Below are positions 8,353 to 62,077 of a stretch of 64,000 bases of DNA, one piece after another. Below the pieces are notes generated by a model, which searched no databases, had not been told where the DNA came from, and saw only the letters and a list, made by a program, of their open reading frames with translations. Numbering within the stretch: position 1 is the stretch's first letter; each line of letters starts with the position of its first letter. The position numbers and the translations under genes were made by a program. The stretch comes from an uncultured Prevotella sp. (GTDB lineage: Bacteria > Bacteroidota > Bacteroidia > Bacteroidales > Bacteroidaceae), in assembly GCA_905234265.1 (NCBI GenBank), contig CAJOHJ010000013.1:1-64000 (forward strand). Reading direction: 5' to 3'.

Positions 8353-10704
8353 TTAGCGCACTATCGTGTATTTGGCAAATTTCAGCAGCAGCTGCTTGGT
8401 GCCTGCATTCCTGAATTCCACGGTAGCCTTTGCATTCTCACCCTTTCCTTCAAGCCTTGTAACGACGCCGATGCCGAAGCGCTGATGCTCAATGGTGTCG
8501 CCTTCCTTTAGCCCGATGTCGCCGATTGACGACTGGGGCAGGGGAGTCTCGTTGCGGACGGGGACGAGGCGGGGCTTTCTGTCGGCCATGAACTGCGAGG
8601 CTACGGGGCGCGGATTCTGGTATGACGACGCCGGACGCTGACTGGCAAAATTATCTTGCGGAGATAATTTCGTAACATGCGGAGATAATTTTTTATCTCC
8701 GTAAGATAATTTCGTATCATGCGGAGATAGGTTGCTGTCTATATGCAGCAGTCGCGGGTCAATGTCGCGGATGAAGCGCGACGGCGTGTCGTATTCCATC
8801 TTTCCATAGCGGAAGCGGTTCTGCGCACACGTCAGTATGCAGTGCTTCTCGGCGCGCGTGATGGCAACGTAGAGCAGCCGGCGCTCTTCTTCCAATTCGC
8901 GCTGCGAGCCACAGCTCATTGGCGAGGGGAAGATGTTCTCCTCAAGGCCAACGACGAAGACCGTCGGGAATTCCAGACCCTTCGACGAGTGTATGGTCAT
9001 CAGCGTCACCTTTGCCTCGTCGGCATTGTCGTCGCTGTCAAGGTCGGTCAGCAGAGCCACCTCCTGCAGGAAGTCGCTCAGCGACACCTCGTCCTCGCGG
9101 CCCTCCTCGCGGCGCAGCTCCACGAAGTCCTGCATGCCTGACAGGAATTCCTCCAGATTTTCCTGCCGCGAAATGTCTTCAGGGTTTGTCGAGCCGTAGA
9201 TGTCGCGGCTGATGCCGCTCTCCATGACTATCGAGTGTCCCAGAGTGTAGGCGTCCTCCGTCTGCATGCGCTGGCTCCAGCCGGCAATCATCTGGCGGAA
9301 GCTTTCTATCTTGCCTGCCGTGCCGGAGGGCAGCTTCAGCCCGAAGACTATCGGCTGCTCGATGACGTTCCAGAGGCTTACGCCGTGGGTGTTGGCCGTG
9401 GCAATGATTTTGCCAACGGTAGTGTCGCCGATGCCGCGGGTAGGGTAGTTGATGATGCGGCGCAGGGCTTCCTCGTCGTTAGGGTTAGACACCAGTCGGA
9501 AGTATGCCAGCACGTCCTTTATCTCTTTGCGCTGGTAGAACGACATTCCGCCGTATATCCGGTAGGGAATGCCGTCTTTGCGCATCTGTTCCTCGAACGA
9601 GCGGCTCTGTGAGTTTGTCCGGTACAGGATTGCGAAGTCGGAATACTGGCAATGGTCGGCTCGCTTTATGCGCTTGATGTCGTTGCAGACTATCATGGCC
9701 TCCTCCTTGTCGCTGTAGGCGGGTTTAAGCTGCAGGCGCTCGCCTTGCTCGTTGCGGCTGAAGACGTCCTTGTCTATCTGCCGCTGGTTTTTCTTTATCA
9801 GGCTGTTGGCAGCCTGCACGATGAGCTGTGTGGAGCGGTAGTTCTGCTCCAGCTTGAACAGTCTGGCCGACGAATACTTCTGCTGGAAGTCAAGGATGTT
9901 GTCGATGTTTGCCCCGCGGAAGCTGTAGATGCTCTGGGCATCGTCGCCGACAACGCAGATCCTGCCATGGTCGCGGGTCAGCTGCAGAACAATTTCCTGC
10001 TGGGCGTAGTTGGTGTCCTGATACTCGTCGACCAGCACGTATTGAAACCTGTTGACGTACTTCTGCCTGATGTCCTCATGGTTTTTCAGCAGCAGCCAGG
10101 TCTGCACCAGCAGGTCGTCGAAGTCCATGGCGTTGGCCTGCCGGCAGCGTTCCACATAGCGGCTGTAGATGGCGCCGGTCTGTGGCTGCTTGCGCTTGGC
10201 GTCGTCGTCGGCCCATGCACTCACCTGGTATTGTGTGGGCATAAGCAGATGGTTCTTGGCCATAGAGATGCGGTCGGCAATGTTGGCAGGCTTGTAGACC
10301 TTGTCGTCGAGCTGCATCTCCTTGATGATGTTCTTCACCAGCGACCGCGAGTCAGCCTGGTCGTAGACGGTGAAGTTGGAGTTGAAGCCTATCGTGCTGC
10401 ACTCTGCATGCAGTATTCGCAGGAACACGGAATGGAACGTTCCCATCTGCAGGCTGCGGGCGCGTTCAGGCCCCACAAGTGCGCCGATGCGCTCTTTCAT
10501 CTCGCGGGCGGCCTTGTTGGTGAACGTAAGGGCCAGCAGGTTCCACGGATTGTAGCCCTGCTCAAGCAGATAGGCTATCTTGTAGGTCAGCACGCGCGTC
10601 TTGCCGGAACCGGCACCCGCAATAATCAGTTGTGGGCCGTCACAATAAGTAACGGCCTCACACTGACTCGGATTTAATCCGCGTAAAAGCTCTTCTTTGT
10701 TCAT
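8353..10704 (-). CDS. uvrD: UvrD/PcrA-type ATP-dependent DNA helicase
   Basis: LNPSQCEAVTY, AGAGSGKTRVLTYKIAYLL, VDEYQDTN, VGDDAQSIYSFRGA, TIHSSKGLEF, LLYVAITRA. Confidence 0.95.
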   Translation of the reverse strand: MNKEELLRGLNPSQCEAVTYCDGPQLIIAGAGSGKTRVLTYKIAYLLEQGYNPWNLLALTFTNKAAREMKERIGALVGPERARSLQMGTFHSVFLRILHAECSTIGFNSNFTVYDQADSRSLVKNIIKEMQLDDKVYKPANIADRISMAKNHLLMPTQYQVSAWADDDAKRKQPQTGAIYSRYVERCRQANAMDFDDLLVQTWLLLKNHEDIRQKYVNRFQYVLVDEYQDTNYAQQEIVLQLTRDHGRICVVGDDAQSIYSFRGANIDNILDFQQKYSSARLFKLEQNYRSTQLIVQAANSLIKKNQRQIDKDVFSRNEQGERLQLKPAYSDKEEAMIVCNDIKRIKRADHCQYSDFAILYRTNSQSRSFEEQMRKDGIPYRIYGGMSFYQRKEIKDVLAYFRLVSNPNDEEALRRIINYPTRGIGDTTVGKIIATANTHGVSLWNVIEQPIVFGLKLPSGTAGKIESFRQMIAGWSQRMQTEDAYTLGHSIVMESGISRDIYGSTNPEDISRQENLEEFLSGMQDFVELRREEGREDEVSLSDFLQEVALLTDLDSDDNADEAKVTLMTIHSSKGLEFPTVFVVGLEENIFPSPMSCGSQRELEEERRLLYVAITRAEKHCILTCAQNRFRYGKMEYDTPSRFIRDIDPRLLHIDSNLSPHDTKLSYGDKKLSPHVTKLSPQDNFASQRPASSYQNPRPVASQFMADRKPRLVPVRNETPLPQSSIGDIGLKEGDTIEHQRFGIGVVTRLEGKGENAKATVEFRNAGTKQLLLKFAKYTIVR
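8646..8730 (-). repeat. 21-bp tandem repeat array in the uvrD C-terminal linker (locus A)
   Basis: ggagataatttcgtaacatgc (8660-8680), ggagataattttttatctccg (8681-8701), taagataatttcgtatcatgc (8702-8722), partial flanks; encodes LSPHDTK-LSYGDKK-LSPHVTK-LSPQDN. Confidence 0.95.
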
Positions 10705-18722: not shown

Positions 18723-20183
18723 TTACTTCTCCTCATGGCAGTATGACGTGCCGTCGAAGCAGTGCGTGCATACGCGCTCCTTGGGCATGCCGATGCTGGC
18801 AATGAGGTCCTCGATGGTGGCGAACTTCACGCTGTTCAGTCCCAGGCGGCGTGCTATCTCGTTCACCATGCGCTTGTATTCCGGCGAGTCTGTCTTGGCG
18901 TACTGCTCCAGGTTCTTGTTCTCGTCGCCCTCGAGGTCTTTTATTATGCGGCGTGTGATGAGTTCCAGGTCGCTCTTCGACGATGTGAAGCCTATGAACG
19001 GACATCCGTAGACCAGTGGAGGACATGAGATGCGTACGTGTACCTCTTTCGCTCCGCAGTCGAAGAAAGTGCGGACGTTGTCGCGCAGCTGTGTGCCGCG
19101 GACTATAGAGTCGTCGCAGAACACTATGCGCTGGTCTTTCAGTATTGCCGGGTTGGGGATGAGCTTCATCTTGGCAACCAAGGCACGCCGGTTCTGGTTG
19201 CCGGGAGTGAACGACCTGGGCCATGTAGGCGTGTATTTCAGCACGGCACGCTTGTAAGGCACTCCGCTGCCATGCGAATATCCGAGTGCCATGCCTACGC
19301 CGGAGTCGGGAATTCCGCACACCAGGTCGGCCTTGGTCTCTGTGTCCTTCTCGCCCATCAGCCGGCCGTTGGTTTCGCGCACCAGCTCGGTGTTTATTCC
19401 CTCGTAGTCGCTGGCAGGGAAGCCGTAGTAGACCCAGAGGAACGAGCATATCTGGCAGCGCGAGAAGGGCTTCTGCAGCACTTCTATGCCGTCGGCGCGC
19501 AGGCGCACAATCTCGCCGGGGCCGATGTCGCGCACGACTTTGTAGTCGAGGTTGGGAAAGCTGGTGGTCTCGCTGCTGACGGCGTAGGCCTGTATGAACT
19601 CGTCGGTACCGATGGGCGAAAGGCGGTGCACCTCTTTCTTGCCGATGACTATCGGCGTGCGGCCCAGGAAGTCGCGTGCGGCAATGATGCCGTCCTCGGT
19701 GAGGATGAGCATCGAGCATGAGCCTTCAATCTTGCGGTATACGTTGTTGATGCCTTCCACAAAGCTGTCGCCCATGTTTATCAGCAGGGCCACGAGTTCC
19801 GTCTGGTTGATGTTGTTTGCCGACATCTCGCTGAGGTGCATGCGCTGCTGCAGCAGTTCGTCGGCTATCTGGCGAAGGTTGTTGATTTTGGCAACGGTGA
19901 CAACCGCATAGCGTCCCAGATGTGAGTTGACGATGATGGGCTGCGGGTCGGTGTCGCTGATGACGCCAAGCCCCTGGTGTCCCTTGAACTGGTCAAGCTC
20001 GTCCTCGAAGCGCGAGCGGAAGTAGTTGCGCTCCAGAGAGTGGATGCTGCGGTGGAAGCCGCTTTCCTCGTCGTATGTTACCAAGCCGGCGCGTTTAGTG
20101 CCTAAGTGTGAGTTGTAGTCGGTGCCGTAAAACAGGTCGTTTACGCAGTCACGTTTAGAGATAGTGCCAAAAAAGCCACCCAT
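18723..20183 (-). CDS. purF: Amidophosphoribosyltransferase family protein
   Basis: GTDYNSHLGTKRAGLVTYD, RDFLGRTPIVIGK, VCGIPDSGVGMALGYSHGSGVPYKRAVLKYTP, IVFCDDSIVRGTQLRDNV. Confidence 0.85.
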   Translation of the reverse strand: MGGFFGTISKRDCVNDLFYGTDYNSHLGTKRAGLVTYDEESGFHRSIHSLERNYFRSRFEDELDQFKGHQGLGVISDTDPQPIIVNSHLGRYAVVTVAKINNLRQIADELLQQRMHLSEMSANNINQTELVALLINMGDSFVEGINNVYRKIEGSCSMLILTEDGIIAARDFLGRTPIVIGKKEVHRLSPIGTDEFIQAYAVSSETTSFPNLDYKVVRDIGPGEIVRLRADGIEVLQKPFSRCQICSFLWVYYGFPASDYEGINTELVRETNGRLMGEKDTETKADLVCGIPDSGVGMALGYSHGSGVPYKRAVLKYTPTWPRSFTPGNQNRRALVAKMKLIPNPAILKDQRIVFCDDSIVRGTQLRDNVRTFFDCGAKEVHVRISCPPLVYGCPFIGFTSSKSDLELITRRIIKDLEGDENKNLEQYAKTDSPEYKRMVNEIARRLGLNSVKFATIEDLIASIGMPKERVCTHCFDGTSYCHEEK

Positions 20184-20466
20184 AGTTCTTTTTACCTGAA
20201 AGTGTTTTATAAGTTTATGCTTGCAAAGGTAGTGATTTCTTTGCTATTTAACGAATGTTGAAGGAAATATCATTGAAAAAAATCGTTAAACGTGACATTT
20301 GTCAAAAAGGCTGAAAATGGCGGCAGTAGTTGCCGCGGACGGAAAATGTGAAAACTTTTTACCTCAGAAGAGCATCGCACCAGCGACGGCAAATAGCGCG
20401 AAAACTGTAGCGACGGGCGGTGTGACAGGTTGTGATGTTGAAGAAATGTCAACAAAAGAGGGCGAA

Positions 20467-20725
20467 TTTTGTGCACATGATGTGGGGTTCTGTGCAAAAA
20501 TGGCACCGCTGAGTGTTTCTGATTTCCGATTTTTGTATGATTTTGCTGTCGGCAGAAGGCCACTTACGAAATTCTCTCCGTAAGATAATTGCGTAACATG
20601 CAGAGATAATTCTGCGAGTGGCCTTCAGAAATTCCCGACTTGGCTGCAAGTGCCTGTCAGTCAGCATAAAACGAGGATGAGTGAAAAAGTGGCATTTTTC
20701 AGTCAAAATGTCGCTTTGCTGCGGA
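20467..20725. repeat. Composite intergenic element copy B
   Basis: Three motifs also present, same order, at 51812-52093 on the opposite strand; includes palindrome gaaggccact...agtggccttc (20555-20626) and CGTAACATGCAGAGATAATT units. Confidence 0.7.
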
Positions 20726-20790
20726 AATGGCTGCTCTTGGAGATGCAAAAGCACAATTTTGTCAACAATTTTTACGCCATGCGCAGTGTC

Positions 20791-21549
20791 TCAGAATTCA
20801 ATCCGCTGACCGTCGTAGGCCAGCTGGATGTCGGGGGGGAGAGACTGGTTGACGTCGGCATGGCGGCCAATGTCGTGGCTGCTGTGGATAAGCCATGTCT
20901 GGCTGGCACCAACGGCGCGCGCAAAGCGGACAGCCTCGTCGACAGTCTGGTGAGAGTGGTGCGGAGTGTAGCGCAATGCGTTGACGATAAGCGTCTGACA
21001 CCCAGTGATGTACTGCATTTCGCTTTCGGCAATGGTTTTCATGTCGGTGATGTATGCCAGCGAGCCAATGCGGAAGCCCAGGATGGGCAAGTCGTGGTGC
21101 ATCACCTGGAAGGGCATGATGTCTATGTCGCCGATGGTGAGCATGTGGTGAGGCTCTATCTGGTGCAGCTGTATGGCCGGCACACCAGGGTATCTGTTTT
21201 CCGCGAAGCAGTAGGGCAGCATTTCCCTGAGTCCCTTGTAGGCAATGGCGTCGGCATAGACGTTTATTTCTCCGAACTGGCAGAAGGGGCGGATGTCGTC
21301 CATGCCGCCCATGTGGTCGTAGTGTGCGTGGGTGATGAGAATGCCGTCGATGGCCTTGAAGGGCAGCGGCAGCACCTGCTGGCGGAAGTCGGGGCCGCAG
21401 TCGATGAGCAGGCGCGTAGCGTCAGACTCGATGAGCGCCGAGCAGCGCAGCCGCTTGTCGTGAGGGTCGGGGCTTGTGCATGTTGCGCACTGGCAGCCTA
21501 TGGTAGGTACTCCGCAGGATGTCCCTGTGCCGAGGAAGGTCAGTTTCAT
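20791..21549 (-). CDS. MBL-fold metallo-hydrolase (PhnP-like)
   Basis: MKLTFLGTGTSCGVPTIGCQCATC, ITHAHYDHMGGMDDIRPF, WLIHSSHDIGRH. Confidence 0.85.
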   Translation of the reverse strand: MKLTFLGTGTSCGVPTIGCQCATCTSPDPHDKRLRCSALIESDATRLLIDCGPDFRQQVLPLPFKAIDGILITHAHYDHMGGMDDIRPFCQFGEINVYADAIAYKGLREMLPYCFAENRYPGVPAIQLHQIEPHHMLTIGDIDIMPFQVMHHDLPILGFRIGSLAYITDMKTIAESEMQYITGCQTLIVNALRYTPHHSHQTVDEAVRFARAVGASQTWLIHSSHDIGRHADVNQSLPPDIQLAYDGQRIEF

Positions 21550-29826: not shown

Positions 29827-29868
29827 AAATTATCTCTGCGTGTTACGAAATTATCTCTGCGTGTTACG
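29827..29868. repeat. Two exact copies of 21-bp unit aaattatctctgcgtgttacg (locus C)
   Basis: 29827-29847 and 29848-29868. Confidence 0.97.
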
Positions 29869-36841: not shown

Positions 36842-36940
36842 AAATTATCTCTGCGAGTTACGAAATTATCTCTGCGAGTTACGAAATTATCTCTGCATGT
36901 TACGAAATTATCTCTGCATGTTACGAAATTATCTCTGCAT
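36842..36940. repeat. Array of about 4.7 copies of 21-bp unit aaattatctctgc(ga/at)gttacg (locus D)
   Basis: Units start 36842, 36863, 36884, 36905, 36926; near-identical. Confidence 0.98.
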
Positions 36941-36966
36941 GGCGGTGTGAGACACAGACAAAAAAA

Positions 36967-51697: not shown

Positions 51698-51811
51698 CTG
51701 CAGACAGCTTTTGGCAGACAGCCAGTGTGCATAGTCAGGCAAAGGCGTAGTGGCGCCCTGAAGTTAAAAATCTTTACAATTTTTGCTTTTTAAGCCCCTA
51801 AAGATTGTCTT

Positions 51812-52093
51812 GCCAGCAGCAAAACGCCATTTTGACTGGAAGAATGCCGAAAATCAAATATTTCCACATCTTGCTAATATAGAGTCACTTACGCGCAAGA
51901 GGCGGGATTTTCTGCGCAGCGTTGGAAAAATAACATAGCCACTTACGAATTTATCTCTGTGAGATAATTCCGTAAGTGGCCTTTTTATTCCGTAGACTCA
52001 ATGCAAAATTCGGCCCGAAGAGGGCGGAAAAATTTTGTTTCCCACTCAAAAATCCGTCATTTTCTGCACAAAATCATCGTTTTGTGCAGAAAA
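51812..52093. repeat. Composite intergenic element copy E (reverse orientation to copy B)
   Basis: gccagcagcaaaacgccattttgactggaagaatgcc (51812-51848); palindrome gccacttacgaatttatctc-tgt-gagataattccgtaagtggc (51938-51980); hairpin ttttctgcacaaaa/ttttgtgcagaaaa (52060-52093). Confidence 0.7.
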
Positions 52094-52419
52094 AGAAGTC
52101 TGCTTTGTCAAAAATCAGGCGTGAGATTTTGAAGAGCTGGCAGGTTTTTGATGCCTTTCCGTTCTCTTTCCACCAATTTTTTGTACACGATAATGGAGTA
52201 AAATAATTATACAAAATGAATGAAAGAAAGAAAACGATGTTATCCTAAATACGCGGTAATCAAACAAAGCCGTATGTTTCCAAAAACGGCGTCACAAAAA
52301 TACAACTTTTTCAGAATAGTATTCCATTGTGGGCCGAATTTTATGTTATTTTTATGAGTACTGCAGCATTTGCTCCACAATATTTCAAAAAAGTGGTTTT
52401 AAATTAAAACTGAAAAATG

Positions 52420-61974: not shown

Positions 61975-62077
61975 ATATCATAATAAGTTATGATATAGAT
62001 AATTCGATTGTCACAAGTATTGTATAAATTTGTAACGTGTTTTTCATGGTATTAGATTATTAAGGTTAATGCAAAGG

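Follow-up and report, generated by a model that had tools for sequence, protein, structure and literature searches.

Evenly spaced arrays of a 21-bp repeat in an uncultured Prevotella genome, with a composite form beside a purF-family gene

Introduction

The REP and BIME elements of enterobacteria and pseudomonads are short palindromic repeats that occur in hundreds of mostly extragenic copies, assemble into mosaics and are specific to lineages. These traits are shared by the family of 21-bp repeat arrays described here, which is represented in a 64,000-nucleotide stretch (the window) of an uncultured Prevotella genome; with 498 copies of its core, the family exceeds the figure of more than 100 mostly extragenic copies by which REP/BIME families are recognized. 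REP sequences, however, are hairpins with a GTRG head, whereas the present family forms a direct-repeat lattice with a 21-bp step, and inspection of the printed arrays revealed no GT(A/G)G head before an imperfect palindrome. The two also differ in distribution, the arrays being evenly spaced and the REP loci of E. coli random.

The STRR sequences of Cyanobacteria are likewise short direct repeats dispersed in numerous sets, intergenic and in some cases within ORFs. The TAACTGA direct repeats of Beggiatoaceae, Cyanobacteria and some Bacteroidetes also form many dispersed intergenic sets, some of them within ORFs, but they are based on a heptamer and lie mostly beside start codons in the main genome described (PMC4679880); the arrays differ from them in their 21-bp units, their even spacing and their lack of gene-orientation bias. 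Within the Bacteroidales, the BrickBuilt minisatellite-MITE of Porphyromonas gingivalis is, as outlined in its description (PMC4596501), intergenic and composed of tandem ~23-nt units with a leader and a tail. It has 19 copies, compared with ~200 loci here, and is described as having the inverted-repeat ends of a MITE; its abstract does not report the even spacing that characterizes the 21-bp arrays.

The DUS and USS of Neisseriaceae and Pasteurellaceae resemble the 21-bp family in their species dialects, inverted pairs and reported even spacing (PMC1939737). Uptake sequences number 1965 in one genome counted, and the evenness of DUS, once read as a role in replication, repair or compaction, was later judged insufficient for compaction and described as less than expected for chromosome-compacting sequences (PMC1939737). 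DUS and USS are nevertheless much denser single words, a DUS being one word of ~9–12 bp at about one per kb, whereas here we find arrays of 21-bp units at one per 12.7 kb.

The division of bacterial chromosomes into domains of ~10 kb is mostly described as transcription-driven and stochastic, and we know of no sequence-defined boundary family of the 21-bp-array kind for the supercoil domains of E. coli. These domains number 400–500 per E. coli chromosome (PMC3820752). At ~10 kb, their size comes near the 12.7-kb spacing of the arrays, from which we infer a possible link.

Results

The element with which we are concerned, copy B, lies in an intergenic gap of 607 bp (20184–20790), the length given in an earlier note made from the window alone, and no conserved ORF was found in it, in agreement with that note. 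The note had placed the element upstream of purF; a gene of this kind does adjoin the gap, and we term it purF-family because its score of 172 bits lies below the NCBI purF cut-off of 350 bits. The motifs reported earlier were recovered: ttctgtgcaaaaatgg is present at 20488–20503, the arms aaggccact and agtggcctt delimit a palindrome one base inside the 20555–20626 first proposed, and the last motif matches the reverse complement of 51816–51848 at 88%. The 24-base core of this last block occurs only in copies B and E, both within the window (where shuffles expect 0) and in the whole genome. When the genome was searched with 20467–20725, almost all of the ~100 partial matches returned fell on the palindrome, which thus belongs to a very abundant family.

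The description of copy B as a composite intergenic element proved sound, although its extent had been set too small, since the two outer dyads form its limits. Drawn in minus-strand orientation, with the 21-bp palindrome ahead of the TGCACA dyad, the element contains four dyads, namely two GTAAA-n5-TTTAC ends, the palindrome of 21-bp units and TGCACA(A)-n-TGTGCA (Table 1).

Table 1. Positions in the window of the composite elements, their dyads, neighbouring genes and further 21-bp arrays
Feature	Position	Strand	Remarks
In-frame 21-bp array in pcrA	8636–8745	-	pcrA at 8353–10704; variable linker before the C-terminal domain
purF-family gene	18723–20183	-	Flanks the gap with copy B
Composite element, copy B	20348–20775	-	~428 bp; from nine-copy alignment and fixed dyad distances
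Outer dyad R, gtgaaaactttttac	20348–20362		GTAAA-n5-TTTAC type; conserved in 9 copies
TGCACA...TGTGCA dyad	20472–20496		ttctgtgcaaaaatgg is its right half
Palindrome of inverted and tandem 21-bp units	20556–20625		Strict dyad centre 20570–20590
Conserved spacer block	20691–20722	+	Closest likeness to copy E
Outer dyad L, gtcaacaatttttac	20761–20775		
MBL-fold hydrolase gene	20791–21549	-	Other flank of the gap
Short 21-bp array	29828–29866	-	Between thrS and rpsF
Tandem 21-bp array	36843–36941	-	Upstream of rpsA, within an ORF call that is over-extended
Composite element, copy E	51763–52212	+	~450 bp; one 21-bp step longer than B
Dyads of copy E	51763–51777, 51949–51969, 52065–52088, 52198–52212		

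Copies B and E had rightly been taken for one element, and the lack of further homologues, named in advance as grounds for rejection, did not materialize: at least nine diverged composites, B and E included, are found on six contigs of the genome. In a common orientation they share the order of an outer GTAAA-n5-TTTAC dyad, the 21-bp palindrome, a TGCACAAA-n-TTTGTGCA dyad and a second outer dyad. The left outer dyad is weak in several composites and barely there in one, and the stretches separating the dyads show only loose conservation. In the commonest class, successive dyad centres lie 185–189, 96–97 and 128–131 bp apart (about 188, 96 and 129), and the exceptions deviate by +20.1, +20.6, +21.1, −19.5 and −41.0 bp, each near a multiple of 21 bp. 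These shifts may reflect a phased protein assembly, or degenerate 21-bp units gained or lost whole. The GTAAA-n5-TTTAC motif has a density of 7.8 per Mb in the sampled genome, and no clear period of helical A/T phasing was detected through the composite spacers.

The 21-bp unit itself, GAGATAATTTCGTAACATGCA, recurs genome-wide in short tandem or inverted arrays. As seen in the printed arrays, it consists of a direct repeat, GAGATAATTTCGTAA, and a six-base linker, with units arranged head to tail or inverted; the linkers counted were CATGCA (87), CTCGCA (27), GTCATT (21) and CACGCA (11). The core TTACGNAATTATCTC occurs in 2.69 Mb in 291 exact copies and 498 with at most one mismatch, compared with 0 for a reversed-pattern control, and the spacings between successive same-strand units are multiples of 21 bp in 173 of 174 cases. 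Twenty-one bases correspond to two turns of B-DNA, and the repeated sites therefore face the same side of the helix. Most arrays are intergenic, and they favour none of the tandem, divergent or convergent arrangements of gene pairs beyond the background. The array within pcrA encodes a repetitive peptide, LSPHDTKLSYGDKKLSPHVTKLSPQ, in the variable linker of the protein, and no clean insertion boundary could be resolved there because this linker varies in length. Searches of the open-access literature yielded no description of the family.

Spacing was analysed in 901 kb sampled from five contigs, roughly one third of the draft genome, with array loci called under one fixed detection rule and a simple ORF call as the gene map for the null models. 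The 70 array loci define 65 gaps with a mean of 12.7 kb and a coefficient of variation (CV) of 0.38, whereas random placement gives 0.94 and none of 20,000 trials was as low as the observed value, a non-random distribution of repeated sites as for matS- or parS-like organizing sites. The discovery contigs (C1, C3 and C13) gave a CV of 0.35 and the held-out contigs (C2 and C5), which were fetched after the pattern had been seen, 0.44, each lower than every random trial. On the discovery contigs the spacing also surpassed a simple exclusion model in regularity (P=0.001), and the result was unchanged when the null was limited to intergenic positions. For comparison, REP loci in 300 kb of E. coli K-12, with a mean spacing of 13.4 kb, have a CV of 1.02 and are indistinguishable from random. 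Two arrays 1.5 kb apart on C2 are probably one array and a chance coding hit. Extrapolation of the sampled density suggests ~210 arrays per genome. Copies B and E both fit the regular series of array positions, and it is this membership of copy B in a genome-wide, evenly spaced family that the earlier note missed. Even spacing by itself is no proof of a structural role.

The tandem pattern, with two mismatches allowed, matched 11 of 399 genomes of the genus, this one included, and several of these are single chance-like hits. With so few genomes carrying the family at the tested similarity, it is therefore not a general Prevotella requirement. A diverged Prevotella species carrying the RUG107 sequence (an uncultured Prevotellaceae genome; G216) shares the core and the 21-bp period, with another linker (GTCGTGAGATAATTTCGTAAC) and an extra CTAG palindrome. 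In 220 kb of this species we called 16 arrays, a few of them doubtful, with a mean gap of 11.0 kb and a CV of 0.54 (P=0.007). Array positions are not significantly conserved between the two dense species: 3 of 47 orthologues lie near an array in both (P=0.22). A shared site at thrS was rejected, as the arrays are found on opposite flanks of that gene, and no orthologous arrays were seen at thrS in the relatives. Thus, from this small sample, spacing looks conserved between the two species and positions do not. Two further genomes, G045 and G291, have few clear arrays, sparsely placed and without significant evenness, and in 100 kb from each of four other relatives no evenly dispersed dense repeat family stood out.

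On contig C26 of G216 (for example, at 162751, 175007 and 189575) arrays are accompanied by a AAATTnTCTAGAnAATTT palindrome, in several of them at a constant distance from the 21-bp unit. The two genes flanking a single array at 131.5 kb of that contig each flank a different array in the present genome (C3, 53.6 and 84.9 kb), a pattern like that of a rearrangement breakpoint inside the array.

Discussion

Our preferred reading, which we hold tentatively and at slightly less than an even chance, is that the arrays are putative sites of protein binding that serve to partition the chromosome or to anchor it. A spacing far more even than chance suggests a built-in ruler or anchoring system, not a local gene switch. 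Copy B would then be a large composite form of a site family met along the chromosome at intervals of about 12.7 kb. A sequence-specific protein would bind one unit per two helical turns, with neighbouring copies on one face of the DNA, and the composites would add phased sites for further proteins, giving rise to a larger nucleoprotein complex. Acting jointly, the ~210 arrays might serve as boundary or anchor points that define loops or supercoil domains of ~12.7 kb. On this reading copy B does not act as a switch for purF in particular. Local regulation of purF was rejected, as homologues at 80–82% identity have no such element in the flanks inspected.

A broader proposal, to which we give less credence, is that a Prevotella lineage keeps phased 21-bp site arrays every ~11–13 kb and rebuilds this spacing amid turnover of positions and dialects, so that domain boundaries would be written in the DNA. 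A family that is strongly even in one species and fairly even in a second is a testable candidate for such sequence-encoded boundaries.

A serious rival, although one we hold less likely than protein-binding arrays, is a mobile or self-spreading repeat of the BIME or MITE type that is moved by some enzyme, has no host function and is kept evenly apart because target immunity or selection acts against neighbouring copies. The apparent turnover of positions and dialects agrees well with this explanation, as do the high copy number, the lineage-specific dialects, the in-frame copy within pcrA and a tandem and inverted modular make-up like that of BIMEs (PMC2817692). Where a MITE would have terminal inverted repeats, the composites carry a GTAAA-n5-TTTAC dyad at each end, each palindromic in itself. 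Against a mobile repeat, PF01797 (the Y1 HUH transposase, RAYT) has no match in this genome (G000, 93.8% complete) and matches in 9 of 16 genomes searched; a RAYT-driven REP system is therefore not supported, allowing for a completeness of 94%. Target-site duplication at the composites is not above chance, the longest words shared between the flanks being 3–5 bp, as in shuffles. Spacing in the discovery set that is more regular than pure exclusion also argues against a mobile repeat, as does the random placement of REP loci of equal density. If the arrays are mobile instead, they would provide a compact natural case of target immunity shaping a whole genome.

We consider it improbable that the family is a species-dialect signal for DNA uptake or self/non-self discrimination, as DUS and USS are. 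Known uptake sequences number considerably more than a thousand in a ~2-Mb genome, far denser than about one site per 12.7 kb; the arrays are built on a 21-bp lattice and not on single ~10-bp words, and most relatives lack the family. Dialects specific to species on a shared core, frequent inverted pairs and wide coverage of the genome nonetheless speak for such a signal, and the part of PMC1939737 that cites Karlin reports even spacing for uptake sequences.

There is equally little to recommend a structured RNA, attenuator or bidirectional terminator serving flanking genes such as purF, the first of which the earlier note had implied. Strong hairpins are present in both copies, with the palindrome of copy B folding far better than shuffles (z about −4.6) and that of copy E better still (z about −8.5), and a T run follows the stem in copy E and in copy C4:425k. 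The structured-RNA reading was not supported, however: the stems are invariant, the covariation term is unfavourable (+1.84) with a both-sided change in 1 of 24 pairs, the dyads keep a 21-bp phase, and an Rfam search of 20184–20790 gave no match up to E=1. Nor were terminator-like sites, in which a T run would follow a G+C-rich stem, or promoter-like sites found in the 607-bp gap at copy B; a tandem array showed no folding advantage over shuffles (z 0.5), and the gene orientation around arrays is that of the background. Invariant stems without covariation are as expected of protein sites, the reading we prefer. An origin in phage was dismissed, since the corrected tandem pattern had no match in viral contigs.

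Two unrelated sequences were encountered along the way. In G045, seven loci within 300 kb (contig C1, 660–960 kb) carry another dispersed repeat, with the words CCTGGGCTAGGA and AAGGGCAAAAGC. In the window, the plus strand at 62037–62109 matches the Rfam family of Bacteroidetes FopS paralogous sRNAs at 65.6 bits.
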